Notes under the pieces: model-generated
What the model saw: the letters and a program-made list of their open reading frames with translations, nothing else
What the model was told of the DNA's origin: nothing
Databases searched by the model: none
Assembly: GCA_016190245.1 (NCBI GenBank)
Contig: JACPQY010000024.1
Coordinates: 1-64,000 of the forward strand
Source: Nitrospirota bacterium
GTDB lineage: Bacteria; JACPQY01
DNA length: 64,000 nt
Direction: 5' to 3'
Part shown: piece by piece, positions 39,738-62,936 of the stretch
How the letters are laid out: the number at the start of each line of letters is the position of its first letter
Numbering within the stretch: position 1 is the first letter of the stretch
Made by a program: the position numbers and the translations under genes

Positions 39738-39853
39738 CGCCGCCACCCCGCGCTCCCCCGGCGCCGTTTGACGGCGGCACCTCCCATGTGAAAAAATAGG
39801 TTGTGGCTTGCAGGGATGCCGGAGGGCGGACACTCCCACCTCGTTCCTTTCCT

Positions 39854-42800: not shown

Positions 42801-45800
42801 ACACGTCGGCGACCCTCGTTTGGACCGCGGTGACCGGGGCCACCGGCTACCGGCTCTACTACGACACGGACGCCACCGGGGCGCCCTACGCCGGCACCGG
42901 GGCCACCGCGGGGAATTCTCCTGTGACGCTGTCGGGAGGAACGACGACTATCGCCGACCTGAACGGGCTTACCCCCAACACGCTCTTCTACTTTGCCGTG
43001 ACGGCGACCGCGGGCAGTTCGGAAAGCGCCTATTCCACCGAACTGCCCTCCGCCACGCGTCTCAGTGCGCCCACGAATCTCCAGGCGCGGGGTGCCACCA
43101 CCCGTGGTGCGCTCTCGTGGAAGAGCGTCAGCGGGGCCACTCAGCACGGTGTCTGCGCGCAGACAACGGCCGGTTGCTCCGCGACCGTTTCCGCCTCCGT
43201 CTCGTGCACCGGCCCCTTCGACGTCATCTGCCCCAGCATGTCCAGCAACAACTGCTGCGCGATCATCAACTCGCCACCGCTTGCGAACGGCACCCAGTAC
43301 TACCTCTCGGTCCGGTCGGAGAAATCCGGCAGCGCCTGCATGGTCTCACCGCCCGCCACCCTCTCCAACAACTGCGGCTTCTTTGCCTCGCCCGAGATCA
43401 CAGCTACACCGATCGCGCAGGCAACACCGACACCCCCGGGCGGGCAGCCCGCCACCTACGCCACGGATGACCAAATCACACTGGACTGGGACGACATCGC
43501 CGGCGCGACCTACAAGGTCTACTACGACACCGGCTCGGCTGGCGCTCCCTACACGGGCTCACAGTCGGGGGGAGGCACCGAGCCATCGCCCATCGCCCTG
43601 ACCGCGTCCACCAAGATTCTCACCACCCTGAGCGCCAATACGATCTACTTCATCAACATCACGGCGGTGAACACCGACCGAGGGGAGAGCGACTATTGGA
43701 CGCCGACGGATCTCGCCCAGGCGACCACGCTCCCGCGGGCGCAAGGCGTCACCCTCCGCCTCGGAACGGGCGAGGGCACGATCACGTGGTCGGGCGTGAC
43801 AGGGGCCACGGGCTACGAGGTCTATTACGGGACGGGCGCCGGCACTCCTCCCGACACCCCGCCGAGCGGGATCCCGGCCTCGCCCGCAGTAACCGGCTCC
43901 ACAAACACAACCCTCGGCGGCCTCTCCAACGGGGCCGCCCACTATGTGTCCATTCGGGGCAAGTCCACCGTCTCGTGCAATCCCTTCCCCTCGCTCTCGT
44001 CCCTCACCCCCGGCAGCAATTGCAGCCGCCTGAGCACGGAGGTGAGCGGAACACCCCTGGCGGCCGTCACGGGCCTCTCGGCGACACCCAACGGAAACCG
44101 GATCGATCTCGCCTGGAGCGCCGTAGCCGCGGCGGACTGCTACAAAGTGTACTACGTCCAAAGCTCCACCTCGCCCGGCGCGTGCAAGCCCCACTCGCAG
44201 AATTGCGTCTCGCTCGGCTGGAACGGCACCGGCGCCACGGACGGGCCTTCTGCGATAGATCTCGCTTCCGTCACGGCGTGCACGGGTTCAACCACCAGCT
44301 ACGCGCTCGCGGGATTGCAAACCGACCTGCCCTATTTCGTGGCCGTGAGCGCGGTGAAAGGCAGCCTCGGGGGGGGGGCTTACGTTACCGAGGCGGATCT
44401 CACTACTGTCGGCCCGGTCTCAAGCCAAGTCGGAACGCCCTCCGGCCTGACCACCACGCTGGATCTGGGCTCCAATCAGTTCGACGGCAGCCTGGACATC
44501 CGTGCCTGCTGGAACACGGTCACGAGCGCCACCAGCTACAAGATCTACTACGATACCGACGGTTGCAGCGCCAAGGCCGGTTTCACCGGAAGCGATCTCG
44601 GAGTGGATGGGGGCCTTCCCGGCCCGTCGCCGCTCAGCGTCACGGCGCAGGTCGGGGCAACCCAATGCGCCGCGCTCTCGGGCGGAACGAACGGCCTCAC
44701 GTACACGGTGGCCGTCTCCGCCGCCACCGCCCTCAGCGAGAGCCCCCTCTCCTCGTGCGCGAGCGCCGCGCCCGTGGCCCGGCCGACCGGCATCCTCATG
44801 GCCCCCGATCCCCTGCGCTCGGCCAAGGTCAACATCGTCCCAAGCGGCGGGACCGCCACGCTCACGTTCTCGTGGCCGCCGGCAGGAGCCATCGGGACGC
44901 CCTCCATCTCCACCGTGGCTGGCACGGGCACCGGCGGATACTCCGGCGACGGTGGATCGGCCACCTCGGCCGCCATCAACCAACCCTGGGCCGTGGCCCT
45001 CGATACCGCGGGCAACATCTACATCGCCGATCGCGCCAACCACCGCGTGCGCAAAGTCACCACGGCAGGCACCATCAGCACGGTCGCAGGCAACGGCACC
45101 GCGGGGTTTTCCGGCGACAACGGCGCGGCCACCCTCGCGAACCTTAACACTCCGTCGGGCGTCGCCTTGGACTCGTCCGGGAACCTCTACATCGCGGACC
45201 AGGCGAACCACCGCATTCGAAAGGTGGACACCACCGGCCTCATCACCACATTCGCGGGCACCGGAACGGCCGCCTACAGCGGGGATGGAGGCCCCGCGAC
45301 GAGCGCCGAGATCAACACGCCCCAGGGCCTCGCCGTGGACACGAGCGGCAAACTCTACATCGCGGACACGTCCAACTACCGCATCCGCATGGTCAACGGC
45401 GCGGGCAACATCACCACCGTGGCGGGAAACGGCAGCGCGGGCTACACAGGCGACAACGGGCCCGCCACCAGCGCGACCCTCAACAACCCCGCCTCCGTGG
45501 CCCTCGACACGGCAGGAAACTTCTACATCGCCGACCAGAGCAACGCGGTGATTCGGAAGGTGTCCAGCGCTTCGATCATCACGACTGCGGCCGGAAGCGG
45601 CACGAGCGGATACAGCGGAGACGGTGGACCCGCCACGAGCGCGAAGCTGAATGCCCCCGCAGATGTCGCCGTGGCGCCGGACGGGACCCTGTACATCGCC
45701 GACACGAGCAACAATCGCGTCCGCGAAGTCTCCGTGGGCGGCACCATCCGGACGGCCGCGGGCACCGGCACCGCCGGCTTCTCCGGCGACGGAGGGCTTC

Positions 45801-48800
45801 CCACCAGCGCCATGGTCAACGCCCCCAGGGGAGTGGCCACCAATGTCTCCGGCTTCCTGTACATCGCGGACACGGACAACAACCGGATCCGCGGCACGGG
45901 CGCGAGCAATTACAAGCTCAAGCGCGACACCGACAACTGCCTCCAACCCTTCGGCACCACGACGAACGTTTCCGGCAGCTCCGTCACCATCGGCGGACTC
46001 ACGACCGGAACGACCTACTACTTCCTCCTCGTGGCCGAGATCGGCGGGGGACTCGAAGTGAACTACTCGGACTGCTTCCTTGTCCAGCCCGGCTCCGTCG
46101 CCGGCGACACCGAGTTTCCCGTCGGCGGCCAGGTCGCCATCTCGTGGTCGGCCGTGACCGCCGCCTCCGAGTATCGGCTCTACTACGCCGACGCGACGGG
46201 CCCGCCCTACTCGTGCAGCGGCCCTCCCCCCAACCCCTCCAGCGGCGGCTGCGACCGCGCCGCCGAAGGCACACCCCCCATCACCGGCCTCACCGCCACC
46301 GCCCAAGACCTCACCGAGATCTCCCCCTTCAACAAGTACTACCTGCGCCTGCAAGCCGCCAACGTGAGCGGGGCGGGCGACTACTCCAATCCCGAGTCCG
46401 AGGTGCGCCCCAGCTTCCCCGTGTGGGACGTGCCCTCCGTGGAATTCATCTCCTCCACCTCGCTCCGGCTCAAATGGAAAAAGATGAACCTTGCCACCGA
46501 CTACGAACTGCACTACGACACGCAGACCCGCGAGGCCCAACTGAGCTCAAGTCCCCCCGACCAGAACTCGACGCCGTACACCGGCATCAGCGGCGGCTGC
46601 CCGGGCGGAACGCTCACCGCCGGAGGCAACCCGAAGTCCACCGGCTTCCTGTTCAACGCCAACGCGGCGGATTGCGGCGACACGACGCCCACCGACAACA
46701 ACTTCGAGTGCACCCTCGCCAACCTCGATCCCACCTGCGTCTACTTCTTCGCGCTTCGCGCCATCAGCTCCGGGGGCAAAAGCGCGTTCTCCATCGAGCG
46801 CCCCTCGCTCCGTTCCCCGGACCTCTACAGCGTCATCCCCGCCACCAGCAAGGTCACGCTCGATTTCTCCTGCGTCAACGGGGCCGACCAATACAACATG
46901 CTCTGGGGCACGGCCCCCGGCGGCCCCTACACAAACACCACCAGCACCGCCAACTGCAACCCGCTCACAGCCGACATCACGAATCCGCCGGACCCCCTCA
47001 CGAACGGAACGACCTACTACTTTGTCGTCGAGGCCGAGAACACCTCGTACGGAGTGAAGAGCCTCCCGTCGAGCGAGATCAAGGCCAGGCCGCTGACCGC
47101 CCCCACTCTCACCTCGGCCACGGGGAAGACCGGGAGCGTGGACCTCACGTACACGGACATCAACAACGGCGAGGACCGCTACCAGATCTACTACGGCCTG
47201 GCGAGCGGCGGCCCCTACGACTGCGGAGGCGGCCCTTGCCCCGCGAAAACGGACCCCGCCAACCCCGGCTTCCCCTCCAACGTCGCCGCCACGAACGGCC
47301 AGACGCGCTATTGGACGGTCAAGGCGATCCATTCGACCGAGAACGGCGCAAGCAGCTTCTCCAACGAAGGCGTGGCCACCGCCCTGGCCGCTCCTCTCAA
47401 TCCCGTGGCCGGCGCGGCCAAGCTGAGCGTGCTGGTCCAATGGGACCCGGTGACCGGAGCGAGCGGGTACGAAATCCACTACGCGACTCCCGCCGGGCCT
47501 CCGTACAACGCCCCGGGGTCCCCCAAGTCCGTGGGAACCGGCTCGTGTGCGCCGACGCCATGCGATGACACGATCACCGGGCTCACGGCCGCAGTCAATT
47601 ACGATTTCGTCGTGCGCGCCACCGCCACGAACTCCGCGAGCGATTTCTCTCTCGAGGTCAGCGCCGTCCCGAGCTACGGGGAGCTCGCCACGGCACCGTT
47701 CGATCCGTGCCCCGGCTCGTGCAGCCAGTTCATTTCGTCCCCCGCCGTCCTGGACCTCGACACCTCGGATGCCGTCTTCGAGATCATCTTCGGCGCCACG
47801 AATTCCAGCGCGATGTACATCAAGAAAGGGAACAACCTCGGCACGAATCTCGCGGGATGGCCACCGGCCACGCCGCCCGGCGCGGCCGTCCAGAGCGCGC
47901 CCGCCGTGGCGGAACTGGACGCCTCAAGCGTGGGCAACGAAGTCGTCATCGCGGGAGACGACGGAATGCTACGGATCTACCGAATGAGCGGCATCCAGGC
48001 CGATGCACAGGCGGTCTCCGGCGCCGCCGGCACCTCCTCGCCCGCCCTCGCGGACGTGGACGGCAACGGCGCGGCCGATCTCGAGATCGTCCTCGTCGCC
48101 AAGAACGGCGCCACCGACTCGCGCCTCCACCTGTTCGACGTCAACGTAGCCACCGGGGCGCTGGCCGAAATCCTTGTCGGCTTCCCCATCGCCCTCGGCG
48201 ATCTGATTTCCACTGGCAGCCCTCCGCGCGGTGTCACCCCCGCCCTCGCCAACCTCGACGGGGGCGCCGACATCGAGATCGTCGCAGGCGACGCTTCAGG
48301 CCGAGCCCACTTCATCAAGGGATCCGGTTCCGAGACGGCCGTGTGCGCCGCCTTCCCGCTCACGATCGGAGGAGGCACTCCGATCAACATCTCGCCCGCG
48401 GTGACTGATGTGGACAATGACGGCTTCGCCGAAGCCGTATTCGCCAACGACGGCGGGAACGTGATCTCCGTCAACGGCCCGGCCGGGGCAAGTCCGTGCG
48501 CGGCAGGATGGACCCAGAACTTGGCCGGGTCGGGACCCTTCCGATCCTCGCCCGTCATCGCCGATCTCGATGCCGGAACGCCGGGGCGAGAAATCGTGAT
48601 CGCCGGCAGCAACGGGCGCCTCTACGTCCTCAAGGGTACCGACGGCTCCTCGCTCAATGCCTTTTGGACCGGCGGGGTGCTCACGAGCTCTCCCGCCACT
48701 GCCATCCGTTCCTCCGCCGCGATTGCAGACGTGAACAACGACGGCGACCTGGAGATCGTCCTCGCCGACGGCAACGGACAGGTCCACGCCTACAACTGGC

Positions 48801-49018
48801 AAGACGCGACCGATCTCGCGGGCTTCCCCACATTCGCCTCCGGCGCCGTGACCTCGTCGCCGTCGGTCGGAAACTTCGACAACGACCCCACGAGTTTCGA
48901 GATCGCCGTGGGCGATGACGCCACGCAATTCCACCTGTATCAAGTGACCGGCCTTGCGGGCATCGGCGCCACCCCTTGGCCCACCTTCCACAAAAACCTC
49001 ACGCGAACCGGCAACTGA
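39854..49018 (+). CDS. Giant exported FN3 / NHL / FG-GAP repeat protein
   Basis: The 3054-residue protein has a signal sequence (about 13-45) with a possible lipobox ending WIAC, then many FN3-like modules (about 90-1670), an NHL propeller block (about 1687-2012, six repeats), more FN3-like modules (about 2015-2600) and an FG-GAP/VCBS propeller (about 2610-3054) that ends WPTFHKNLTRTGN. FG-GAP repeats show calcium-type DVDNDG and DVNNDG loops. An insert motif of the form Y-Y-D-T-D-x-x-G-x-P-Y-x-G recurs at least twelve times in FN3-like modules. No catalytic domain is seen, so adhesion or surface display is likely. ATG 39854 is chosen because it starts the signal sequence. A G10 run lies at 44369-44378. 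Three more exported proteins follow. Confidence 0.9.
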   Translation: MTNVAPLHTEKARSSRALLATLALTLLLIGPTRWIACFGGNAVDTNLQFRLVNASSTKDEDLSRIVLQLYDENDDFPGSHVTDAYNLCFDPPIAAEPLHQEIFNYSQRTARITATVPEGVIHFVAEAYKLERQRDGTEEFKLVARGFRKDIRVRLTSPTDIGDVQLVDVLEKKRPGNIKLVARSTTIRVSLDALPGASEYVACFGSATGRRATEDATVLTSTEGEILGTPDPETGQPIPLRVNHQYLLKVFARNAASASLPALAPGFPLAEGASESDLPESATRDQTNTVFTATTIAPIVSEIIDTLQPDLVILSWKHRSSETRYCIDSPCFEATHSSCEKDPTSALANIKVGEARTACGATAAEDDRCAMIGGVVSGRSCTFNIYALNEDHGVSDPTSRTVVAVSPPRPIDIRARSASIELSFTPSPGATEYEIIVSETPGGDGSVCRATAGQVRIENGVAHISIGAGGLACLPALQVGKKYYVRVRSIAVQSSISPPSEEIFATPLAPVPSILARGHSGRVQLGWNTHASADGYLLYYTYTATPADSKYLGTGAQEGPSPVCVNPGPGVSTCAARPNSTGPGIVATAATGGAGLASGGALTADLTGLANGTTYTFNVTAFANRGASYLDTANPGAGDDGESDFTTAATALTLGMPANFAVSAGDGTVQLGWDPSSQADSYCLRYSCGNAAANCSDPFKSGLANRITDSVAQAACGSGSAASRRCSTLVGLVNGQPCTYVQVMALQGGLHSSDPTDAVTATPVSPPGGVTAKGGTNRIDVSWTSAVGAEAYVLYYDSDSPGPPYAGSKTVSGGASTTAAITGLSNGTTYNVAIRATNTTLGVSPYTTEVQTVTLETPALSTTAWSTSSVTLKWSAVTKATGYEVHYDTDSPDPPFTGSGATNGASPVAVTESAATSACPTGSSSSLRCFTLSGLTNGTTYHVALRATQTTYFATSSYSSTVSGAPLAAPTGLAVSSSAALGDTSATLVWTAVTGATGYRLYYDTDATGAPYAGTGATAGNSPVTLSGGTTTIADLNGLTPNTLFYFAVTATAGSSESAYSTELPSATRLSAPTNLQARGATTRGALSWKSVSGATQHGVCAQTTAGCSATVSASVSCTGPFDVICPSMSSNNCCAIINSPPLANGTQYYLSVRSEKSGSACMVSPPATLSNNCGFFASPEITATPIAQATPTPPGGQPATYATDDQITLDWDDIAGATYKVYYDTGSAGAPYTGSQSGGGTEPSPIALTASTKILTTLSANTIYFINITAVNTDRGESDYWTPTDLAQATTLPRAQGVTLRLGTGEGTITWSGVTGATGYEVYYGTGAGTPPDTPPSGIPASPAVTGSTNTTLGGLSNGAAHYVSIRGKSTVSCNPFPSLSSLTPGSNCSRLSTEVSGTPLAAVTGLSATPNGNRIDLAWSAVAAADCYKVYYVQSSTSPGACKPHSQNCVSLGWNGTGATDGPSAIDLASVTACTGSTTSYALAGLQTDLPYFVAVSAVKGSLGGGAYVTEADLTTVGPVSSQVGTPSGLTTTLDLGSNQFDGSLDIRACWNTVTSATSYKIYYDTDGCSAKAGFTGSDLGVDGGLPGPSPLSVTAQVGATQCAALSGGTNGLTYTVAVSAATALSESPLSSCASAAPVARPTGILMAPDPLRSAKVNIVPSGGTATLTFSWPPAGAIGTPSISTVAGTGTGGYSGDGGSATSAAINQPWAVALDTAGNIYIADRANHRVRKVTTAGTISTVAGNGTAGFSGDNGAATLANLNTPSGVALDSSGNLYIADQANHRIRKVDTTGLITTFAGTGTAAYSGDGGPATSAEINTPQGLAVDTSGKLYIADTSNYRIRMVNGAGNITTVAGNGSAGYTGDNGPATSATLNNPASVALDTAGNFYIADQSNAVIRKVSSASIITTAAGSGTSGYSGDGGPATSAKLNAPADVAVAPDGTLYIADTSNNRVREVSVGGTIRTAAGTGTAGFSGDGGLPTSAMVNAPRGVATNVSGFLYIADTDNNRIRGTGASNYKLKRDTDNCLQPFGTTTNVSGSSVTIGGLTTGTTYYFLLVAEIGGGLEVNYSDCFLVQPGSVAGDTEFPVGGQVAISWSAVTAASEYRLYYADATGPPYSCSGPPPNPSSGGCDRAAEGTPPITGLTATAQDLTEISPFNKYYLRLQAANVSGAGDYSNPESEVRPSFPVWDVPSVEFISSTSLRLKWKKMNLATDYELHYDTQTREAQLSSSPPDQNSTPYTGISGGCPGGTLTAGGNPKSTGFLFNANAADCGDTTPTDNNFECTLANLDPTCVYFFALRAISSGGKSAFSIERPSLRSPDLYSVIPATSKVTLDFSCVNGADQYNMLWGTAPGGPYTNTTSTANCNPLTADITNPPDPLTNGTTYYFVVEAENTSYGVKSLPSSEIKARPLTAPTLTSATGKTGSVDLTYTDINNGEDRYQIYYGLASGGPYDCGGGPCPAKTDPANPGFPSNVAATNGQTRYWTVKAIHSTENGASSFSNEGVATALAAPLNPVAGAAKLSVLVQWDPVTGASGYEIHYATPAGPPYNAPGSPKSVGTGSCAPTPCDDTITGLTAAVNYDFVVRATATNSASDFSLEVSAVPSYGELATAPFDPCPGSCSQFISSPAVLDLDTSDAVFEIIFGATNSSAMYIKKGNNLGTNLAGWPPATPPGAAVQSAPAVAELDASSVGNEVVIAGDDGMLRIYRMSGIQADAQAVSGAAGTSSPALADVDGNGAADLEIVLVAKNGATDSRLHLFDVNVATGALAEILVGFPIALGDLISTGSPPRGVTPALANLDGGADIEIVAGDASGRAHFIKGSGSETAVCAAFPLTIGGGTPINISPAVTDVDNDGFAEAVFANDGGNVISVNGPAGASPCAAGWTQNLAGSGPFRSSPVIADLDAGTPGREIVIAGSNGRLYVLKGTDGSSLNAFWTGGVLTSSPATAIRSSAAIADVNNDGDLEIVLADGNGQVHAYNWQDATDLAGFPTFASGAVTSSPSVGNFDNDPTSFEIAVGDDATQFHLYQVTGLAGIGATPWPTFHKNLTRTGN
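44914..45900 (+). repeat. Six tandem NHL repeats within the giant gene
   Basis: Six units of about 165-170 bases each encode a segment like STVAGTGTGGYSGDGG, a variable AINQP-type stretch, and a GNIYIADRANHRVRKV-type strand. Six blades would form one closed NHL beta-propeller. The units are similar at the DNA level, which makes this stretch prone to recombination and misassembly. Confidence 0.85.
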
Positions 49019-51865: not shown

Positions 51866-51890
51866 GTATGGTAGTATGGTTGCTGTATGG
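51866..51890 (+). promoter_or_regulatory. Three GTATGG direct repeats at the antitoxin start
   Basis: GTATGG occurs at 51866-51871, 51874-51879 and 51885-51890; the last copy includes the ATG. TATGGT at 51875-51880 could be a -10 box giving a leaderless message. Ribbon-helix-helix antitoxins usually repress their own promoter by binding short repeats like these; that they do so here is inference. Confidence 0.4.
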
Positions 51891-52168
51891 TAAAGGCCAC
51901 CTTCACCTTCGACGATGAGACGTTTGGGAGCCTCAGACGTACCGCCGAGCGCCTGCGCATCCCCCAGAGCCAGGTCGTCCGCGAAGCGGTGCGGTCCTAC
52001 GCCGAGCGGTCTCGGACCCTCCCGGAGGAGGAGCGGCGGAGGAAACTCAGGATCCTAGACACCATCCTCGACCGCCGGGCGAACAAGACGACCTCCCACG
52101 TGGATGACGAGTTGAGAACCCTAGGGCGCTCGCGCCAGGGCTACGGGCGAAAACACCGCGCGGACTGA
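51887..52168 (+). CDS. vapB: Ribbon-helix-helix antitoxin (VapB-type)
   Basis: The 93-residue protein starts with a ribbon-helix-helix fold (VKATFTFDDETFGSLRRTAE, then SQVVREAVRSYAE) and has a charged tail that should wrap the toxin. A PIN-domain gene follows two bases after its stop. Three GTATGG repeats overlap its start. No ribosome-binding site lies at normal distance; GGAGG at 51858-51862 is too far. Confidence 0.8.
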   Translation: MVKATFTFDDETFGSLRRTAERLRIPQSQVVREAVRSYAERSRTLPEEERRRKLRILDTILDRRANKTTSHVDDELRTLGRSRQGYGRKHRAD

Positions 52169-52170
52169 AG

Positions 52171-52548
52171 TTGCTCATCCATCTCGATACGTCCTTCCTA
52201 ATCGACGCGCTCGTCGGTCCGCGCCGGAAGGGGAAACAACTCCGCACGTGGTTCGAGAGAGGCGAGATCGTGACCTTGAGTTCACCGGTCCTCTACGAGT
52301 GGCTCCGAGGGCCGCGCACCCCCGAGGAGATGGAAGATCAGGAGCGGCTCTTCCCCGTAGCCGATACCGTGCCCGTGGACGGCGCTGTCTCCGCCCTCGC
52401 GGCCCGGTTGTATCGGGCGGTCAGGTCGCCCCGCGGCCGCGAGATCGACCTCCTCATCGCCGCGTGCGCCATCGAGCACGGCGCGGCCTTGGCCACTCTC
52501 AATCCCCGGGACTTCGACGACGTGCCGGGTCTCGACCTCGCCGGATAG
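52171..52548 (+). CDS. vapC: PIN-domain ribonuclease toxin (VapC-type)
   Basis: The 125-residue protein has the PIN acidic set: D6 in HLDTSFLIDAL, E43 in LYEWLRG, D93 in EIDLLIAACA and D114 in NPRDFDD. PIN toxins cleave tRNA or rRNA with Mg2+. It starts at TTG 52171, two bases after the antitoxin stop. All catalytic residues are present, so it should be active. Confidence 0.85.
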   Translation: MLIHLDTSFLIDALVGPRRKGKQLRTWFERGEIVTLSSPVLYEWLRGPRTPEEMEDQERLFPVADTVPVDGAVSALAARLYRAVRSPRGREIDLLIAACAIEHGAALATLNPRDFDDVPGLDLAG

Positions 52549-53306: not shown

Positions 53307-55706
53307 TCACCCCTCCCGACCCGAGCCCACCGCCAACTCGTCCCTCCCGCCCCGGCGGCCGGCCACGACGCGCAAGAGCACGGGAAGAAAGAAGAGCGAG
53401 GCCAGCGTCACGCAGATGAGTCCGATGTTGGCGAGGACACCGATGGACTCCAGCCCCTCGTGATGGGCCGTGATCATCCCGCCGAAGCCGAATATCGTGG
53501 TGAGCGAGGCCACCAGAATGGAGCCCAGGAGCCGGTTCATCGTCACGCCGATGTCGCCCTCCGCCAGATACCGGTGCAGGATGTGAACGCCGTAATCCGT
53601 CCCAATCCCGATCAGGCTCGGCAGGACGATCATGTTGAAGAAGTTAAGCTTGATTTTGAAAAAAAACATCGCCGACAGCATCCACACCATCCCGACGACC
53701 AGCGGGACGAGTGAAAGCGACGCCAGACGGATGCTCCTGAAGTCGAGCAATACGAGAACCACGATCGCGAGGAAGGCGGATAGGAACGCCGTCCGCCCGT
53801 CACGCAGCATCAGATCGAAGACATCCACCAGTACAATCGTGTCGCTCCCCGCATGGAAAATCCCCTGCCGAGTCGGGATGGTTCGGACGTCTTCCGCGAA
53901 TCGGCGCGCATCCTTCACGTTCGCGAGCTTCACCGTACCCGAGTCCGAGTACACCAGGCCCAGGTAGTACCCCCCCCGCTCGAACTTTTCCCGGAGGTCG
54001 GCCGGAAGGTCCTCCAGGCCGATGGCGTCCACCGTGAGCCGGCCGCGCAACCGCCCGATCCTGTCGCGATCGGCGGCGGGGAGCACACCGATCGGCTCGC
54101 GGTCAAGGATCTCCCGGATCTCGCCCATCACCTTGAGCTTCTCCTCCTGCTCCTCGGGCAGGAGCGAGTAGAGCGACTTGAAAGACTTGATCGTCGGGGA
54201 GTGGACATCGTTCTTGATCTTGTCCTCCACCGCCTCGCGGACCGCATCGAGTTCCTCCAGCGATCGCGTGAGGACCACCGCGGGCGTCAGCGAACCGCTC
54301 AGCACGTCGCGCATCTTGCTCCGCCAGACCGAGGATTCCTTTTCCTGCGACTTGAGGGCGGAGAAGTCGTACTCGAACTTGATCCGCGGGGCCAGCACGC
54401 CGCCGAGGAAGGCCAGGCCCATCCCGAGGAGGAGAACCCCGTTCGAGAGCGGCCACCGGCTCCCCCTGGCGCCGCCCCCGGCGCGGACCTTTAGGAAGCC
54501 CCAGCGGTCCAGGACGAGCAGGAGCGGCCCCTCGAGAAAACCGTAGCTCAACAGGATGCAGACGATCCCCGTGGATGCAATCTGGCCGAAATGAGAGAAC
54601 CCCTTGAAATCGGTGATGAGGAGCGTGGCGAAGGCTCCTGCCGTCGTGAGCCCCGAGATGCCGATGGAGCGGGCCGTGCCTCCGCTGATACGTTCGACGG
54701 CCTCCTCCGGGGTGACCCCTTCCCGCCTCTGCTGAAGATAGTGGTTGAGGAGAAAGACGCCGTAGTCCACACCCAGGCCGAAAAGAGTAAGGAATAGGAA
54801 GGCGGTAAACATGTTGAGTTCGCCAAGCGTGAGCTCCGCAAGGGCGAACGCCACGGCGATGCCGAGAAAGAGCGGGAAAAAAACGGGCAGAAAAGCCCCG
54901 AGACTGCGGAAGTAGATGAAGACGGTGGCCAGGATAAGAAGTCCACCCGTGAGGGCGCTCGATCGCAGATCGCGCAGGATCGAAGCGTATTCATCAATCC
55001 GGTTCTGGATCGGTCCGGCAAGGCCGCAATCCAGGGATGGATGGTAGGAACCCGGCCGCAGCTCTTCCTTCGCGACGGCCAGGATCTGCCGGGCCGCCGA
55101 CTTGATGTAGCCCATGTCCGATGTCGGTCCGGTCAGCTTGAGGACCAGCAGGAGGATGTGCCCGTCCCGTGTGGCGTAGTACAGGCGGTCCAGGCGTTGG
55201 GATTCGTCCTCCGGCAGCTCCGGCGGGGGATCGTCGAGGGAGAAGTAGAAAGGATTCTGCTTGAGTTTCTCGGCCTCGATCCTCTTCAGGATTCTCGATT
55301 TCAGGTCCCGGAGATCCTCCACGCTCGCGTAGAGGAGGGTGTGCTGCTCGAGGAACGGGTTCCGCCGCTCGTAGGTGGCCTCGCGCACGAGGCCCGACGC
55401 GACGAGGCGTTGGCCGACGTCGCTCGCGAAACGCCGGCTCGCCTCGAAGTCCTCGGACTCGATCACCAGCATGAGATCGCCCGATCCGCCGGCGGCCGTC
55501 TCCGCCACGCGGTTCAGTTCCTTGACGCTCTCGTAGTCGTCCGGCAGCAACGCCACGAGGTTGGTCTCGAGCGAGAGGCGTCTAACGAGGGGAACACAGG
55601 CCATGAGGAGCACGAACGCCGCCGCGAGGGTGAGATACGGTCTTGCCCGGAGTCGGCGGGCCACGGGCCAGGACATGGGATTGGCCCAGAACACCTCCGG
55701 CCTCAT
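53307..55706 (-). CDS. MMPL-family RND exporter, probably of a lipid
   Basis: The 799-residue protein has about 12 helices in two repeats, each with a large periplasmic domain, and the RND/MMPL pattern LFGLGVDYGVFLLNHY (helix 4) and PSLIGIGTDYGVHILHRY (helix 10). Relatives move lipids such as hopanoids (HpnN) or mycobacterial lipids. It is the last gene of a minus-strand set with inositol-phosphate synthase and two CDP-alcohol phosphotransferases, 40 bases after the fused enzyme, so it may move their lipid product; this is inference. Confidence 0.85.
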   Translation of the reverse strand: MRPEVFWANPMSWPVARRLRARPYLTLAAAFVLLMACVPLVRRLSLETNLVALLPDDYESVKELNRVAETAAGGSGDLMLVIESEDFEASRRFASDVGQRLVASGLVREATYERRNPFLEQHTLLYASVEDLRDLKSRILKRIEAEKLKQNPFYFSLDDPPPELPEDESQRLDRLYYATRDGHILLLVLKLTGPTSDMGYIKSAARQILAVAKEELRPGSYHPSLDCGLAGPIQNRIDEYASILRDLRSSALTGGLLILATVFIYFRSLGAFLPVFFPLFLGIAVAFALAELTLGELNMFTAFLFLTLFGLGVDYGVFLLNHYLQQRREGVTPEEAVERISGGTARSIGISGLTTAGAFATLLITDFKGFSHFGQIASTGIVCILLSYGFLEGPLLLVLDRWGFLKVRAGGGARGSRWPLSNGVLLLGMGLAFLGGVLAPRIKFEYDFSALKSQEKESSVWRSKMRDVLSGSLTPAVVLTRSLEELDAVREAVEDKIKNDVHSPTIKSFKSLYSLLPEEQEEKLKVMGEIREILDREPIGVLPAADRDRIGRLRGRLTVDAIGLEDLPADLREKFERGGYYLGLVYSDSGTVKLANVKDARRFAEDVRTIPTRQGIFHAGSDTIVLVDVFDLMLRDGRTAFLSAFLAIVVLVLLDFRSIRLASLSLVPLVVGMVWMLSAMFFFKIKLNFFNMIVLPSLIGIGTDYGVHILHRYLAEGDIGVTMNRLLGSILVASLTTIFGFGGMITAHHEGLESIGVLANIGLICVTLASLFFLPVLLRVVAGRRGGRDELAVGSGREG

Positions 55707-55746
55707 CGATCAGGGGCGGCCGCGAAGGTGCGCAGGAGGGATAGGG

Positions 55747-57198
55747 TTACTCTTTGGCGCGGACTTCGCCGCGCGCGGGGACGCCCTGCCAGAGTTGCGT
55801 GCGGGCCAAGAGGTAGATCAGCCACAACACGTTGCTCGCCACGGCGCCCGACCAGAGGATCCAGAGCGGCTTCCCCGCCACGGCGAGACTGAGAAAGAGG
55901 ATCGCGAAGAAATCCCGCTTCACGGCAAAGCGCAGGTAATAGAAGAACCGGACGAGCGGCGAGCAGTCCTGCACCACCTGGCGAAGGTTCGAATCGAGGA
56001 GGACGAGCGTGCCCCGGCCGTTGCGATGCACGTAGTGGTACATGAAGGCGAGTGAAGCGACGGTGCCTCCCACGGCGAAGGCTCCAAGCCAAATCGTGGA
56101 AACCTCCGGCACCCTCTTGTAGGCCCCGATGGTGACCCCCGCGAAAAAGGCGAGATACGACAGGTTGTCCGTCACCGTGTCCAGCCACTCCCCCATCCGG
56201 CTCTGTCGGTACTTCAACTTGGCCACCTCTCCATCCACGCCGTCCAGGACGGACGTCAACTGGAACAGCGCCGCACCCATGATGAAGGGAATCGCGCTCT
56301 TGAAGCTCACGAGGTAGGCCGCCAGCAGGGCGAGGGCAAAATTCGCGAAGGTGATCTGGTTCGGCGTGACGGACGTACCGCTGACCCACCGACTTACCAC
56401 ATGCGAGATAGGCCGGTTGAGGTGGCGGGAAACGACGCCATCCGTGTGCTTCTCCGTCGCCCGCAGGAGGAGTTTCTCCGCGTAGTGGAGGGAGCCCGGT
56501 GTGTCCACATCCTGCCACCAGCCGGGGCCGATATCGAACACGCGCAGGCGGCCGGTCTCGGCCAGTTGCCGGACACCGTCCGCCAGAGAGCAGTCGCCCT
56601 TTCGTTCGTAGCACGCGCGCAGCGAGCCGAAGAGCGCCGGTGTGCAGAGGAACATCCCGGTATCGATCGCGTTGTAGCTCCCGAGATCTTTGGCGATGGC
56701 CCCAACGCGACCGTCCTCCACCTGGACCTTCATGGCATCATCCAGGTCGAAAATCTCGTCCACCTTCCGATCGATCGCCAGGATCGTCTCACCCTCCCCG
56801 AGGGGCGCTTCGAGAAGGGCCTTGAGCGTTTCGGCGGGGAACAAGTGATCGGCCATCAGGAGGACGAACGGATCTCGAACTGACTCGGACGCCTTGAGGA
56901 CGGAAACGCCGTTGGCCTTCTTCCAGTCAGGGTTGGAAATCCACTTGAACGTAAGGCCGGCGAGGTCGGGGCTTCCTTCGATGGCAGCCCTGATCTCATC
57001 GGCCCGGTAGCCCACCACGATGTTGAACTCGCGGATTCCGGCCTGGCGGGCGGACATGATGACCCGCTTGAGAAGGGGTACACCCAAGACACGGACGAGC
57101 GGTTTGGGGGACCGTGTGAGGGGGGTGCGGAGCCGGGCGCCGCTTCCTGCGGCGATAATCACCGCCTTGTGGACAGGCATGTGGTCAGACGTTATCAT
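55747..57198 (-). CDS. Nucleotidyltransferase fused to CDP-alcohol phosphatidyltransferase (IPCT/DIPPS-like)
   Basis: The 483-residue protein joins a sugar-phosphate-nucleotidyltransferase-like domain (about 8-240, with IIAAGSGARLRTPLTRSPKP) to a membrane CDP-alcohol phosphatidyltransferase (about 265-480) with the metal-site motif DGVDGEVAK, then G-x3-D-x3-D. The order matches the bifunctional CTP:inositol-1-phosphate cytidylyltransferase / di-myo-inositol-phosphate-phosphate synthase of hyperthermophiles. Inositol use is supported by an inositol-1-phosphate synthase gene just upstream. It could instead make a CDP-inositol used for a phospholipid. The usual arginine after the DGxxA is a lysine. 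It overlaps the previous gene by ATGA. Confidence 0.82.
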   Translation of the reverse strand: MITSDHMPVHKAVIIAAGSGARLRTPLTRSPKPLVRVLGVPLLKRVIMSARQAGIREFNIVVGYRADEIRAAIEGSPDLAGLTFKWISNPDWKKANGVSVLKASESVRDPFVLLMADHLFPAETLKALLEAPLGEGETILAIDRKVDEIFDLDDAMKVQVEDGRVGAIAKDLGSYNAIDTGMFLCTPALFGSLRACYERKGDCSLADGVRQLAETGRLRVFDIGPGWWQDVDTPGSLHYAEKLLLRATEKHTDGVVSRHLNRPISHVVSRWVSGTSVTPNQITFANFALALLAAYLVSFKSAIPFIMGAALFQLTSVLDGVDGEVAKLKYRQSRMGEWLDTVTDNLSYLAFFAGVTIGAYKRVPEVSTIWLGAFAVGGTVASLAFMYHYVHRNGRGTLVLLDSNLRQVVQDCSPLVRFFYYLRFAVKRDFFAILFLSLAVAGKPLWILWSGAVASNVLWLIYLLARTQLWQGVPARGEVRAKE

Positions 57199-57965
57199 GA
57201 CGCACCCGGGCTATCAAGTTTTTTGAGGATGTTATAGGTCCGATATAGGGCTGTCAAATTGGTGCCCAGGGCGAAGAGCACCAAGCCGGCCTTGAACAGA
57301 TATTCTGGCTCGAGCACAGGCCATCGTGGGATCAGCAGGTCCGCCAGCGGAGTGAGCACCGAGACGGCCCACAGATAGAAGATCCGTTCCGACCGCTTGA
57401 AGAAGCCCCCCTTGAAATTCAGGCCGAGCCCCTCCCCCCTGGCCTTGGTGTAACTGACCAGCATGGACCCGAGGAACGAGAAGAGCGCCGGGTAGAACCA
57501 GCCCGACGCCCGGTAGTACCCCGCGATCCCGATGAAGACGACGCCTTCCGTCCAGCGATCCATAGTCGAGTCTAGGAACGCGCCGCCGCGGGTTTCCTTT
57601 CCCAACCGGCGGGCCAAGTGCCCGTCCAGCGTGTCGAGGATGCCGCCGAAGGCGAGGAGCCAACCGGCCGCGCCAAAGCGCCCCTGGAGGTAGGCGTAAG
57701 CCGCCCCGAAGGCCAGGGCGGAGCCGCCCAGGGTGAGCATGTTGGGGGTGATCCCAACACGTCGGCAGAACCGCTCGAAGGGATCGAAAACCCACAGGAT
57801 GAACTCAACGAGGTAGCGTTTGAAGGGGATATTGAGGTTGATGTATTTCTCGTGATCCATCTCCTGCGTTCCGACCCCCCGCAGGAGGTAGAGGGCGAAG
57901 AGGACGACGGTGAGGATGTAGAGGGCGAGCAGCGGGCCGATGACGACCCAGAGGGGGCCTGACAT
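57195..57965 (-). CDS. CDP-alcohol phosphatidyltransferase, possible phosphatidylinositol-phosphate synthase
   Basis: The membrane protein carries the complete family motif DTLDGHLAR, then G-x3-D-x3-D (GGAFLDSTMD). It may join CDP-diacylglycerol to inositol-1-phosphate, since the gene for inositol-1-phosphate synthesis is directly upstream and a second phosphatidyltransferase directly downstream (ATGA overlap). Sequence motifs alone do not separate this from PgsA-type or other alcohol acceptors. ATG 57965 is used; GTG 57968 is an alternative. The first 40 or so residues contain an extra membrane helix. Confidence 0.8.
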   Translation of the reverse strand: MSGPLWVVIGPLLALYILTVVLFALYLLRGVGTQEMDHEKYINLNIPFKRYLVEFILWVFDPFERFCRRVGITPNMLTLGGSALAFGAAYAYLQGRFGAAGWLLAFGGILDTLDGHLARRLGKETRGGAFLDSTMDRWTEGVVFIGIAGYYRASGWFYPALFSFLGSMLVSYTKARGEGLGLNFKGGFFKRSERIFYLWAVSVLTPLADLLIPRWPVLEPEYLFKAGLVLFALGTNLTALYRTYNILKKLDSPGAS

Positions 57966-58069
57966 CACGCCTGATCCAGGCGGGGCGCCAAAGTGTCTTT
58001 CATGCCTGCTGTGGGCCCAAATCGGTCTATCTCGGGGGTATCCGCCTCACCCCGGGACAACCGGTGTCG

Positions 58070-59176
58070 CTACCGTTCCGCCCGGCCCTCGATGTAGTCT
58101 CGAACGAGCTGGCGCGCTCGTTCATCACTGATCTGGACTGGGGGATGCTTCATGGTGCAAGCCGAGATGGACGTGAGCGGACCGCCGACCTTCCGGTCGC
58201 GCGCCAGCTTGCAGCACCGGATCGCGTCGATCGCCACCCCTGCGCTGTTCGGCGAATCCTCCACCGACAGCCGCGCCTCGAGTTCCAAGGGCACGCCGCC
58301 GAACCCGCGCGCCTCGATCCTGAGGAAGCAAAGCTTGTTGTCCTTCAGCCAAGGCACGTAGTCAGACGGCCCGATGTGGATATCCTCGGCCGGGAGGGGC
58401 TGAGCGAGCTGCGACTGTACGGCCTCGGTCTTGGAAATTTTCTTCGAGGTGAGCCGTTCGCGGGCGAGCATGTTAAGGAAATCCGTGTTTCCGCCGGCAT
58501 TCATTTGATAGGTCCGTTCGATCTTGACCCCGCGATCCCGGAAGAGGCGGGCCAAGGTGCGATGCAGGATCGTGGCGCCAAGCTGGCTCTTCACATCGTC
58601 TCCCACGATGGGGAGGCCTTTCTCCTGAAACTTGGCTGCCCACGCGGAGTTGGAGGCAATGAACACGGGGATACAATTGACCATCCCCACGCCGGCGGCC
58701 AGGCACGCCGTGGCATACGCTTGGGCGGCCTTTTCCGAACCGACAGGCAGGTAGTTGACGAGGATCTCGCAGCCCGTCTCGCGGAGCGTGCGTTCCACAT
58801 CTACCGGGTCTGTGTCGGCCAAGAGGAAGGTCCGATCTTCCGGATACTCAGCCATGTGGGAGGCGACCCCGTCGAGGACCGGCCCCATGCTGACTCTCGT
58901 GCCGTTGCAGGAGAAATCGCCACAAAAGACCTTCGTACAGTTGGGGGGAGCAAAGATGGCCTCGTGGACGGGGCGCCCCACCTTCCGCTTGTCCACGTCG
59001 AACGCGCAAACGACCTCGATGGATTCCGGCCGGTAGCCACCGATTTCGCGGTGCAGGAGGCCGTCCATCTGGGCGGCTGATTTTGCCCCTTCGCGGGTGT
59101 AATACTCGATGCCTTGAAGGAGGGAACTGGCGCAGTTACCTACACCTACAATCCCGAGCCTGATTCTCTTGTCCAT
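58070..59176 (-). CDS. ino1: Inositol-1-phosphate synthase (Ino1/MIPS)
   Basis: Ino1 turns glucose-6-phosphate into inositol-1-phosphate with NAD. The 368-residue protein shows the nucleotide-binding GIVGVGNCASSLLQG at the N-terminus, FVIASNSAWA-type and LPIVGDDVKSQLGATILHRT segments, and QMNAGGNTDFLNM, all typical of the short bacterial/archaeal enzyme. AGGAAAG lies just before ATG 59176. It heads the minus-strand set that continues with two CDP-alcohol phosphatidyltransferases and an MMPL exporter, though a 104-base gap follows it. Confidence 0.95.
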   Translation of the reverse strand: MDKRIRLGIVGVGNCASSLLQGIEYYTREGAKSAAQMDGLLHREIGGYRPESIEVVCAFDVDKRKVGRPVHEAIFAPPNCTKVFCGDFSCNGTRVSMGPVLDGVASHMAEYPEDRTFLLADTDPVDVERTLRETGCEILVNYLPVGSEKAAQAYATACLAAGVGMVNCIPVFIASNSAWAAKFQEKGLPIVGDDVKSQLGATILHRTLARLFRDRGVKIERTYQMNAGGNTDFLNMLARERLTSKKISKTEAVQSQLAQPLPAEDIHIGPSDYVPWLKDNKLCFLRIEARGFGGVPLELEARLSVEDSPNSAGVAIDAIRCCKLARDRKVGGPLTSISACTMKHPPVQISDERARQLVRDYIEGRAER

Positions 59177-59316: not shown

Positions 59317-60132
59317 TCAGGATGGCGTGTGGGATAGGAGGCGAAGAAGGGTGTCGAGCGTCGTTTTGAGGTTGGGCCGGGCCACAATCAAGTCGATCAT
59401 CCCGTGCTCCAAGAGGAACTCTGCCCGCTGAAAACCGTTGGGAAGGCGCACCTTTATGGTCTGTTCGATCACCCGGGGACCGGCAAACCCGATCAGCGCC
59501 CGGGGTTCGGCCATGATCACGTCCCCTTGGAAGGCAAAGCTCGCCGCCACGCCGCCGGCTGTGGGATCGGTCAGGACGGAGACGAAGGGTTTCCCCACCT
59601 CGCGAAACCGTGACACAGCCGCAGATGTCTTGGCCATTTGCATCAGGGAGATGATCCCCTCTTGCATGCGCGCACCGCCGGAGGCGCTGAAAAGGACCAC
59701 CGGGCAGTCCCGCTCCCGGGCCCTATCGAAGAGCCGGCTGATCCGCTCACCCACGGCGTACCCCATGCTGCCGCCCATGAACCGGAAATCCATGACCCCC
59801 ACCGCCACGGCGCGGTTCATGATCCGCCCTTCGCCGGTCACAACGGCCTCCGTAAGGCCGGTTTTCTTCTGCGCCTGCTCGATCCGATCCGGGTAGGTCG
59901 TCGTGTCCCGAAACCCCAGGATGTCGGTCGTCCCGATCGTGGCGTCCCACTCAACGAGCGCTCCATCATCGAGGACCATCTGGAGGCGCTCGGTCACCGT
60001 GAGCCGAAAATGGTACTGGCATTTCGGGCACACGCCCATCCCCCGGTCCACCTCTTTCTTGAAGATGACCTCGTGGCACCCCTCGCACTTCACCCACAGT
60101 TCCTGGGGGATCGATTTCTCGAAGAGACCCAT
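59317..60132 (-). CDS. accD: Acetyl-CoA carboxylase carboxyltransferase subunit beta
   Basis: AccD with AccA moves carboxyl from biotin to acetyl-CoA to give malonyl-CoA for fatty-acid synthesis. The 271-residue protein has the four-cysteine zinc ribbon (VKCEGC and VCPKCQYH) and the carboxyltransferase blocks FMGGSMGYAVGERI, FSASGGARMQEG and LTDPTAGGVAAS. A TATAAT box lies eight bases before the ATG, suggesting a leaderless message. No accA is nearby. Confidence 0.97.
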   Translation of the reverse strand: MGLFEKSIPQELWVKCEGCHEVIFKKEVDRGMGVCPKCQYHFRLTVTERLQMVLDDGALVEWDATIGTTDILGFRDTTTYPDRIEQAQKKTGLTEAVVTGEGRIMNRAVAVGVMDFRFMGGSMGYAVGERISRLFDRARERDCPVVLFSASGGARMQEGIISLMQMAKTSAAVSRFREVGKPFVSVLTDPTAGGVAASFAFQGDVIMAEPRALIGFAGPRVIEQTIKVRLPNGFQRAEFLLEHGMIDLIVARPNLKTTLDTLLRLLSHTPS

Positions 60133-61046: not shown

Positions 61047-62936
61047 TTGGATCTAACAACGAACCCGGCCGGGGTCCAGGGGTGGCGTTCCATCTACGTC
61101 CCTCACGACCAGTCCGACCATTCCATGGCGGCGGCCGCGATGGCCACCGAGATCGCCCGGAAGTGCGGGGCCCGGCTCACGGCTTCCCACATCTATGCCG
61201 CCGCCCTTCACGACGTCCGTTTCCGCCAGATGGAGTACACACTCCCCGAGGAATACCTCGACGAGAAGGAGATGGAACGGCAGCGAAAGCTTCACGACAC
61301 GCTCATCACCATGGGCCTGCGCCTGATCTCCGACTCCTACCTCGACCAGGTGCGGCTCCTCTGCGAGAAGCACGGGGTTCCCTTCAGCGGCAAGATCGTG
61401 GACGGTCTCCACTGGCGCTCCCTGGCGAATGACATCCGCGAGGGCGGATACGACCTCGTCGTGATGGGCGCGCTCGGGATGGGCGCCACGAAGGAGAGCC
61501 AGATCGGGAGCGTTTGCGAGAGGGTGGCGCGCCGGACCCAGACGGATCTCCTGCTCGTGCGTGAAGTCGAGGGAGGCGGCGCCCACACCAACGGGCACGG
61601 ACGCCGGATCCTGGTCGGCCTCGACGGGTCGCCCCAGTCCTTCGGCGGGCTACTCACGGCCTTCCACCTCGCGCACATGTTCGACAAAGAAGTCGAGGCC
61701 GTGGCCGTGTACGATCCCTATCTCCACTACGTCCTCTTCCACATGATCTCGAAGGTGCTCTCCGCCGAGGGATCGAAGGTCTTCCGTTTCAAGGAGCAGG
61801 AGAAACTCCACGAGGAAATCATCGACACGGGGCTCGGCCGCATCTACCAATCCCACCTCGATGTCGCGAAGCAGGTGGCGGAGCAGCACGGCACGAAGCT
61901 GCGCACAACGCTCCTCGACGGCAAGGCCTATCCGAAGATCCTCAAGCACGCGCAGGAGACGAAGGCGTGGATGATCGTTCTGGGCCGGCTCGGCTACCAC
62001 GGGAGCGAGGACCTCGATATCGGCAACAACACCGAGAACATCCTGCGCATGGCGCCGTGCAATGTGTTCGTTTCGACGCAGAGGTACATGCCGCCCCTCG
62101 AGATGCGCACGCAGCAGTACCTCACGTGGTCCCCGGAGGCCGAGAAGCGGATGGAGCGGATTCCCGCGATGAGACGGAACCTCATGCGGATGGTGGTGGC
62201 GAAATACGCGTTCGAGATGGGCCACACGGTGATCACGGAGAGCGTGATCAACAAGGCCGTCGGCAAGCTATTCCCCGAGCAGGCCTCGCGGCTCCTCGCC
62301 GAGACAGCAGTCAAGTACGTCTACGACGCCGTCAGCGCCGGCAAGGTCCGGCTCAGCGTTTGCCGGAACTGCGGCCACGTCACGCGTACGGTGGCGCCCA
62401 TCCAGTGCGCGGTCTGCTCCTCGACCGAGTTCGGCCCCCTCGATGGGGAAGCCTTGGAAGCCCTCGCGTTGGATCAAGGCCGGCCGCGCGAGGAGGAATC
62501 CTTCGATGGGGCGCGTATCCGCTGGTCCTATGAGGCGTGGAATACGCTGGCCAAGGCTCCGCAGGGCTACACGAAGCGGCGGCTGAAGGCCCGCATCGAG
62601 AAGAACGCGCGCATCCGTTCGCTCTCCATCATACCCCGCGAGTTCGTGGAGGAGATGTTCCGCTCGGAAGGGCTCGGAGATTTTCTTGGCGGGTACGACT
62701 GCAAGTGGACTGAGGAGGCGTTCCAAGCTGTCCAGGCCTACCCCGAGGGATTCCTCCGGAAGAAGATGAGGGAGACGGTCGAAGGCTATGCCGCGCGCCA
62801 CGGGATCAAGCATGTCACCCACGAGGTCGTCAAGTCGGCGCTTGACCAGGTCGCGGACGACCTCCGCCGAGTGGAGCGACGAGCGCCGGGTTCGACGGGG
62901 CCGGAGCCGGGCACCGACCAGGAGTCCGATCAGTGA
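61047..62936 (+). CDS. Two-domain universal stress protein with zinc ribbon and three PCP_red-like modules
   Basis: The 629-residue protein has two UspA domains (about 14-172 and 184-345). The first ends with the full ATP-binding pattern GALGMG...GS (G-x2-G-x9-G-S); the second has GRLG...GN, one residue off. Then come a PCP_red-like module (about 361-407, WSPEAEKRMERIPAMRR), a zinc ribbon with CRNC and CAVC (about 439-457), and two more PCP_red-like modules (about 492-541 and 553-602). PCP_red modules take their name from a protochlorophyllide reductase subunit. The stop overlaps the radical-SAM gene start. The start is TTG 61047, the only candidate before the first UspA strand. Confidence 0.85.
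   Translation: MDLTTNPAGVQGWRSIYVPHDQSDHSMAAAAMATEIARKCGARLTASHIYAAALHDVRFRQMEYTLPEEYLDEKEMERQRKLHDTLITMGLRLISDSYLDQVRLLCEKHGVPFSGKIVDGLHWRSLANDIREGGYDLVVMGALGMGATKESQIGSVCERVARRTQTDLLLVREVEGGGAHTNGHGRRILVGLDGSPQSFGGLLTAFHLAHMFDKEVEAVAVYDPYLHYVLFHMISKVLSAEGSKVFRFKEQEKLHEEIIDTGLGRIYQSHLDVAKQVAEQHGTKLRTTLLDGKAYPKILKHAQETKAWMIVLGRLGYHGSEDLDIGNNTENILRMAPCNVFVSTQRYMPPLEMRTQQYLTWSPEAEKRMERIPAMRRNLMRMVVAKYAFEMGHTVITESVINKAVGKLFPEQASRLLAETAVKYVYDAVSAGKVRLSVCRNCGHVTRTVAPIQCAVCSSTEFGPLDGEALEALALDQGRPREEESFDGARIRWSYEAWNTLAKAPQGYTKRRLKARIEKNARIRSLSIIPREFVEEMFRSEGLGDFLGGYDCKWTEEAFQAVQAYPEGFLRKKMRETVEGYAARHGIKHVTHEVVKSALDQVADDLRRVERRAPGSTGPEPGTDQESDQ

Follow-up and report, generated by a model that had tools for sequence, protein, structure and literature searches.

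A probable inositol-phospholipid operon in a Nitrospirota genome, with a phosphatidylinositol-phosphate-synthase-like enzyme, a CDP-inositol-type fusion and an MMPL transporter

For bacterial inositol lipids, a CDP-diacylglycerol (CDP-DAG) route has been characterised in Bacteroides and a Kennedy-like route through CDP-inositol has been proposed in others (Heaver et al., 2022; PMC9246714). Use of CDP-inositol for phospholipids is also reported in hyperthermophiles, in a passage of a review citing Jorge 2015 (PMC10191378). We analysed a four-gene cluster encoding Ino1, two CDP-alcohol phosphotransferases (CAPTs), one of them fused to a nucleotidyltransferase, and an MMPL protein. It lies within a 64,000-nucleotide stretch of a Nitrospirota genome (the window). 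This operon seems to hold both bacterial routes, CDP-DAG plus inositol phosphate and CDP-inositol plus a lipid. Each route was known or proposed before, and what seems new is their presence in one operon with a candidate exporter, a combination for which no description was found in the open-access literature. The original prediction, made from the DNA alone, regarded bacterial inositol lipids as uncommon, and they are less rare than it assumed (PMC9246714). It also described the four genes as co-directional, two of them overlapping by ATGA; the open reading frames (ORFs) do run head to tail on the minus strand, with the overlap read directly in the sequence:

58070..59176, minus strand: Ino1, myo-inositol-1-phosphate synthase (MIPS) of mycobacterial type, 368 amino acids (PF01658, TIGR03450, 1gr0)
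57195..57968, minus strand: phosphatidylinositol-phosphate (PIP) synthase-like CAPT, the PIPS-like enzyme, 257 amino acids (NCBIfam scores, 6h53, signature)
57195..57198, minus strand: ATGA stop/start overlap of the PIPS-like and fusion genes
55747..57198, minus strand: putative CTP:inositol-phosphate cytidylyltransferase fused to a CAPT, 483 amino acids (NF041135, 4mnd, AlphaFold2 model)
56449..57198, minus strand: cytidylyltransferase domain of the fusion, residues 1-250 (R22, K32, D117)
55750..56448, minus strand: CAPT domain of the fusion, residues 251-483 (signature; six predicted transmembrane (TM) helices, seen in the AlphaFold2 model)
53307..55706, minus strand: MMPL/RND transporter of HpnN-BstA type, 799 amino acids (PF03176, TIGR03480, 6wu0)

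The reading we consider fairly probable is an inositol-phospholipid operon in which two parallel routes start from one precursor and the MMPL protein moves a product. From gene order, family, fold, residues and the tie to Ino1 we infer the following substrates, products, lipid acceptor and cargo. Ino1 would convert glucose-6-phosphate into inositol-1-phosphate, which the PIPS-like enzyme would join to CDP-DAG to give phosphatidylinositol phosphate. The cytidylyltransferase domain of the fusion would combine CTP and inositol phosphate into CDP-inositol, and its membrane domain would hand phosphoinositol on to the hydroxyl group of a lipid, most likely diacylglycerol, giving phosphatidylinositol (PI) without a PIP intermediate. 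The HpnN-like MMPL protein would then move one product away from the inner membrane. An inositol-phosphate-based lipid cluster, as first suggested, is supported by the families, residues and context of Ino1, a PIP-synthase-type and a CDP-inositol-type transferase.

The actinobacterial PI pathway (Ino1 and PgsA1; RsPIPS 5d91, MkPIPS 6h53) likewise has a mycobacterial-type Ino1, and the PIPS-like enzyme here has the same full signature and inositol-phosphate-binding residues. The operon differs in adding a putative CDP-inositol enzyme and an MMPL protein, in a PIPS-like enzyme that scores under the PIPSynth cut-off and in having no PIP phosphatase in the cluster. With BT_1522-1526 of Bacteroides thetaiotaomicron (PMC9246714) it has in common a MIPS and a BT_1523-type PIP synthase (114 bits), but it is without the PgpA-like PIP phosphatase and the AUR1-like inositol-phosphoceramide synthase, and has the CDP-inositol-type fusion and the MMPL protein. 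The cluster proposed for Bacteroides vulgatus and Prevotella (MIPS, nucleotidyltransferase, CAPT and HAD; PMC9246714), likened here by description only, shares the CDP-inositol logic; in the window the nucleotidyltransferase and CAPT are fused, no HAD protein is present, a PIPS-like enzyme and an MMPL protein are added, and the remaining members correspond in kind only. The fusion shares its domain order and fold with the IPCT/DIPPS protein of Archaeoglobus fulgidus (4mnd; 403 residues, Z 33.8), but it has lost the arginines that hold the acceptor phosphate, and the tree places its clade as the sister group of AfDIPPS. The thermophile route, in the passage mentioned above (PMC10191378), is reported to use CDP-inositol as phosphoinositol donor to a lipid, as we propose for the fusion. 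Finally, HpnN (6wu0) and the sterol transporter BstA share the MMPL/RND architecture of the candidate exporter, which scores well below their cut-offs; neither genome examined has a squalene-hopene cyclase match.

The source genome (G000) is metagenome-assembled and 84.8% complete, with the window in its contig C10, and one further genome of the phylum (G001, same family, other genus) was compared. The intergenic distances are 101 bp between Ino1 and the PIPS-like gene, -4 bp between the latter and the fusion, and 40 bp between the fusion and the MMPL gene. All four ORFs have a GC content at third codon positions of 0.79-0.84, typical of coding DNA of this genome. Pfam scores were far over cut-off (Inos-1-P_synth 127 bits, CDP-OH_P_transf 62 and 42, NTP_transf_3 57, MMPL 122). 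The original prediction advised seeking the gene order in relatives, and the order accD-Ino1-CAPT-fusion-MMPL recurred in the one available relative (G001, L008 5780-12790), with protein identities of 62-74% except for the nucleotidyltransferase half of the fusion (58%). Because this five-gene order is repeated, the arrangement is not due to chance. The conserved upstream neighbour is:

59317..60132, minus strand: accD, fatty-acid synthesis (TIGR00515, 386 bits, above cut-off; same position in G001)

Ino1 contains the Inos-1-P_synth domain (PF01658; 127 bits against a cut-off of 27) and its closest solved structure is an inositol-3-phosphate synthase of M. tuberculosis type (1gr0; E 2e-116), both as expected of a myo-inositol-1-phosphate synthase. 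The best NCBIfam model was the mycothiol-type INO1 (TIGR03450) at 424 bits, below its cut-off of 638. Each of the two genomes has a single Ino1, and the two copies have 74% identity.

The PIPS-like enzyme scored 126 bits with the archaetidylinositol-phosphate synthase (AIPS) family, 114 with BT1523-type PIPS and 110 with PIPSynth, below the respective equivalog cut-offs of 180, 350 and 170 bits. As the curated PIPS and AIPS cut-offs were not reached, we name it PIPS-like and do not file it as a proven member. It aligned to the PIP synthase 6h53 with E 1e-20, and its CDP-alcohol phosphotransferase signature DxxDGxxAR...GxxxDxxxD is complete (D112, D115, G116, A119, R120, G129, D133, D137). In characterised PIP synthases the inositol phosphate is held by R153 and R191 of RsPIPS and by S132, K135, R155 and R195 of MtPIPS (PMC4634129), while MtPIPS R94 contacts its phosphate and is critical, the R94Q substitution nearly abolishing activity (PMC6506517). 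In alignments, MtPIPS S132, K135, R94, R155 and R195 correspond to S172, K175, R138, R195 and R243 and are all kept, the three arginine codons being:

57555..57557, minus strand: R138 of the PIPS-like enzyme, equivalent to MtPIPS R94; follows the last signature Asp and is Arg in all PIPS-type rows
57384..57386, minus strand: R195 (in KRSER), aligned with MtPIPS R155 and RsPIPS R153
57240..57242, minus strand: R243 (TM6), aligned with MtPIPS R195 and RsPIPS R191

In the tree the PIPS-like enzyme and the other PIPS rows were split from the fusion family with full support. PgsA joined the PIPS rows on long branches, so the tree alone does not separate the enzyme from PgsA. By score, the pgsA model reached 24.6 bits against 110-126 for the three inositol-type families; neither transferase scores as a PgsA, the identity that would have spoken against an inositol role. 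Elsewhere, PIPS-type homologs adjoin Ino1 at 16 places in Myxococcota, and Ino1, PIPS and the cytidylyltransferase occur together in two Myxococcota genomes. A second CAPT pair is found in G001 (L009:7711-9275), a PgsA-like protein followed by a fusion-family CAPT without an active nucleotidyltransferase domain, preceding radical SAM-like genes.

The fusion scored 233 bits with the IPCT/DIPPS family (NF041135), below the cut-off of 580 and with the match stopping at position 346 of 419 of the model, and aligned to Archaeoglobus IPCT/DIPPS (4mnd) with E 1e-45. Its AlphaFold2 model (pLDDT 83) superposed on 4mnd at 2.7 A over the whole nucleotidyltransferase-CAPT fold, and its CAPT signature reads DGVDGEVAK...GEWLDTVTDN. 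On the donor side, R22, K32 and D117 are invariant in 15 homologs and match the Arg, Lys and Asp of the Thermotoga IMPCT active site (PMC12275187), the equivalent of IMPCT D112 having been assigned by alignment. CpgD and IMPCT are homologous, and their superfamily accepts phosphoglycerate and other phosphates (PMC12275187). The link to inositol was therefore checked by genome context, using a domain search with matched coordinates in 188 Myxococcota genomes. Ino1 was present in 66 of the 74 genomes with a fusion-family match compared to 44 of the 114 others (Fisher p 9e-13, a test that ignores shared ancestry). In eight of the 13 genomes with long fusion matches, 180-345 bp separate the match from an Ino1 domain encoded on the same strand; a partial match (nucleotidyltransferase-only or CAPT-only) lay within 5 kb of Ino1 in 31 genomes. 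Because the family tracks and often adjoins Ino1 in Myxococcota, CDP-inositol is a likely intermediate and inositol phosphate the likely donor-side substrate. A fusion unlinked to inositol had first been suggested by tblastn with the window Ino1, which found almost no Ino1 within 10 kb on either side of fusion homologs; this was rejected because many Myxococcota Ino1 proteins are of another, longer type that tblastn missed. A split form of the fusion was also observed: the CAPT ORFs of L055, L086 and L087 have an N-terminal domain resembling a degenerate nucleotidyltransferase and directly follow a separate intact nucleotidyltransferase gene.

On the acceptor side, PIPS and DIPPS alike use inositol phosphate (for the role of MtPIPS R94, PMC6506517). 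AfDIPPS, Af2299 and all PIPS rows have Arg directly after the final Asp of the signature; at this position the window fusion has Asn, and its Myxococcota relatives carry Asp, Asn or Val. In the window type, Phe takes the place of the second Arg in an R-D-x-R motif where TM5 begins, and no conserved basic residue was found in TM6 of the aligned window-type fusions.

56164..56166, minus strand: N345 of the fusion; Arg in CAPTs that use inositol phosphate (alignment)
55906..55920, minus strand: K-R-D-F-F, fusion residues 427-431 at the TM5 start; Phe replaces the second Arg of R-D-x-R

Other fusions, forming a set of their own and in some cases beside Ino1, retain both the post-signature Arg and R-D-x-R, and the two states co-varied across the family (7/2/0/47). 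The TM5 Arg register is ambiguous in a direct alignment of PIPS and fusion and was settled through these Arg-bearing fusions and the post-signature residue. Two Arg-bearing fusions run on into a HAD phosphatase domain, which fits a pathway of DIPP followed by di-myo-inositol phosphate (DIP). These three-domain proteins (cytidylyltransferase, CDP-alcohol phosphotransferase and HAD phosphatase; L064:785-3202 in an Acidimicrobiia metagenome-assembled genome and L137:1510-3567 in Myxococcota, the latter adjoining Ino1) resemble complete DIP synthases contained in a single polypeptide. No description of such a residue split inside the IPCT/DIPPS family was found in the open-access literature.

Grouped with the window fusion among the Arg-less proteins (96/85 support) were Myxococcota fusions and the CAPTs from those Chthoniobacterales clusters in which a serine-palmitoyltransferase-like enzyme, a GNAT protein, an SDR and a fatty-acid hydroxylase are encoded as well. 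Since the clade of the window fusion includes CAPTs of such sphingolipid-like clusters, the acceptor is most likely a lipid. L011, the nearest outside homolog (42% identical), adjoins a glycerol-3-phosphate acyltransferase and an LPG_synthase_TM protein, and a BT_1521-type lysylphosphatidylglycerol synthase lies near both Bacteroidetes inositol clusters (PMC9246714). From residues and neighbourhoods, the acceptor is probably a lipid and probably diacylglycerol. A sphingolipid role in the Nitrospirota organism itself was set aside: a serine-palmitoyltransferase-like match was absent from G000, and G001 had one pyridoxal-phosphate-dependent acyltransferase of that family. The Chthoniobacterales loci themselves (L027:9213-17479 and similar), which have two CAPTs and an IPCT-like nucleotidyltransferase beside the enzymes listed, are candidate sphingolipid clusters with a CDP-inositol-type head-group step.

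Several points weigh against two parallel routes to an exported inositol phospholipid. None of the enzymes reaches the equivalog cut-off of its named NCBIfam model or models, the fusion signature has Lys for Arg (AK for AR), and a single operon would seem not to need two ways of making nearly the same lipid. Conservation of the gene order rests on two genomes of the phylum, the Myxococcota co-occurrence is open to the effect of shared ancestry, and three of the eight fusions adjoining Ino1 are of the Arg-bearing type. No PIP phosphatase lies in the cluster (PgpA homologs occur elsewhere in both genomes), so the cluster gives no support for the self-contained system that the original prediction had proposed. 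The MMPL gene had no counterpart near fusion homologs in the 77 other loci (within about 10 kb).

This last result bears on the suggestion that the cluster has its own exporter. The MMPL protein matched PF03176 at 122 bits, the HpnN model TIGR03480 at 270 bits and the HpnN structure 6wu0 with E 3e-27; its nearest named families are HpnN and BstA, which handle hopanoids and sterols. A hopanoid exporter of HpnN type was rejected, as the score is 270 of the 752 bits needed and no squalene-hopene cyclase match was found in either genome, so that the protein is probably not a hopanoid transporter. It might be a bystander, a general RND/MMPL transporter of a drug, a siderophore or another lipid, which would leave the enzymes as we read them. 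We hold this to be a real possibility, given the absence of the gene near fusion homologs of other phyla in the loci searched and the several further MMPL proteins of both genomes, though the gene lies only 40 bp downstream, runs in the same direction and is kept in G001 at 62% identity, and its nearest families transport hopanoids and sterols, yet neither genome matched a squalene-hopene cyclase. Its conserved position in the operon of the two genomes points to an inositol lipid as cargo. Support for a dedicated exporter is weak: the gene belongs to the operon in these two Nitrospirota genomes and has no counterpart in the related loci searched. Replacement of lipopolysaccharide was also considered and finds no support, since LpxC, which the incomplete G000 lacks, occurs in G001.

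The two transferases might instead act in series, the PIPS-like enzyme making PIP or PI and the fusion adding a second phosphoinositol from CDP-inositol, to give a tandem phosphoinositol lipid exported by the MMPL protein to the outer membrane. This would place both enzymes in one operon without redundancy, agrees with a fusion acceptor site unlike that of enzymes using free inositol phosphate and has a parallel in the ceramide diphosphoglycerate CPG2 of Caulobacter, which bears two phosphoglycerates, the second requiring a cytidylyltransferase of the same superfamily (PMC12275187). It is nevertheless unlikely: Myxococcota fusions adjoin Ino1 alone with no PIPS in the neighbourhood, and a PIPS product is therefore not needed there.

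It is a little less probable still that the fusion is an IPCT/DIPP synthase making the compatible solute di-myo-inositol phosphate, with the PIPS-like enzyme alone making lipid. AfIPCT/DIPPS is its top-scoring family and fold and Ino1 is close by, but the post-signature Arg, the second Arg of R-D-x-R and a conserved TM6 Arg are all absent, whereas the first two are present in AfDIPPS and in the Arg-bearing fusions, and in MtPIPS loss of the residue equivalent to the first (R94Q) almost eliminates activity. The window fusion also has no phosphatase domain, unlike the two Arg-bearing fusions. Without the acceptor-phosphate arginines the fusion is unlikely to be a DIP synthase, which argues against the inositol solute offered earlier as an alternative product. 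Activation of another phosphate, such as phosphoglycerate as in CpgD, is very improbable, for although CpgD and IMPCT are homologs in a superfamily of varied phosphates (PMC12275187) and some fusion homologs belong to sphingolipid-like clusters that have no Ino1 nearby, the family is strongly tied to Ino1 in Myxococcota and shares an operon with it in both Nitrospirota genomes.

If the parallel-route reading is true, an operon with both routes and a candidate exporter would offer a single host for comparing the routes, and might show how inositol lipids get to the outer membrane. The residue test, which tells DIP-solute synthases apart from probable lipid-acceptor enzymes in the same fused family, would aid annotation in many genomes of Myxococcota, Verrucomicrobiota and elsewhere.

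In G001 the MMPL gene is directly followed by a CRISPR-like array (L008:12913-15430) with a repeated FQSSPDPKAGRN-type translation. In the window, positions 51887-52548 encode an RHH protein adjoining a PIN-domain protein, likely a VapBC-type toxin-antitoxin pair. Positions 61047-62936 encode fusions of universal-stress-protein domains with PCP_red domains, the latter otherwise occurring at the C-terminus of the protochlorophyllide reductase BchB. A repeat-rich ORF of 3071 amino acids (39803-49018) contains fibronectin-III-like, NHL-like and FG-GAP-like segments, as judged by eye.

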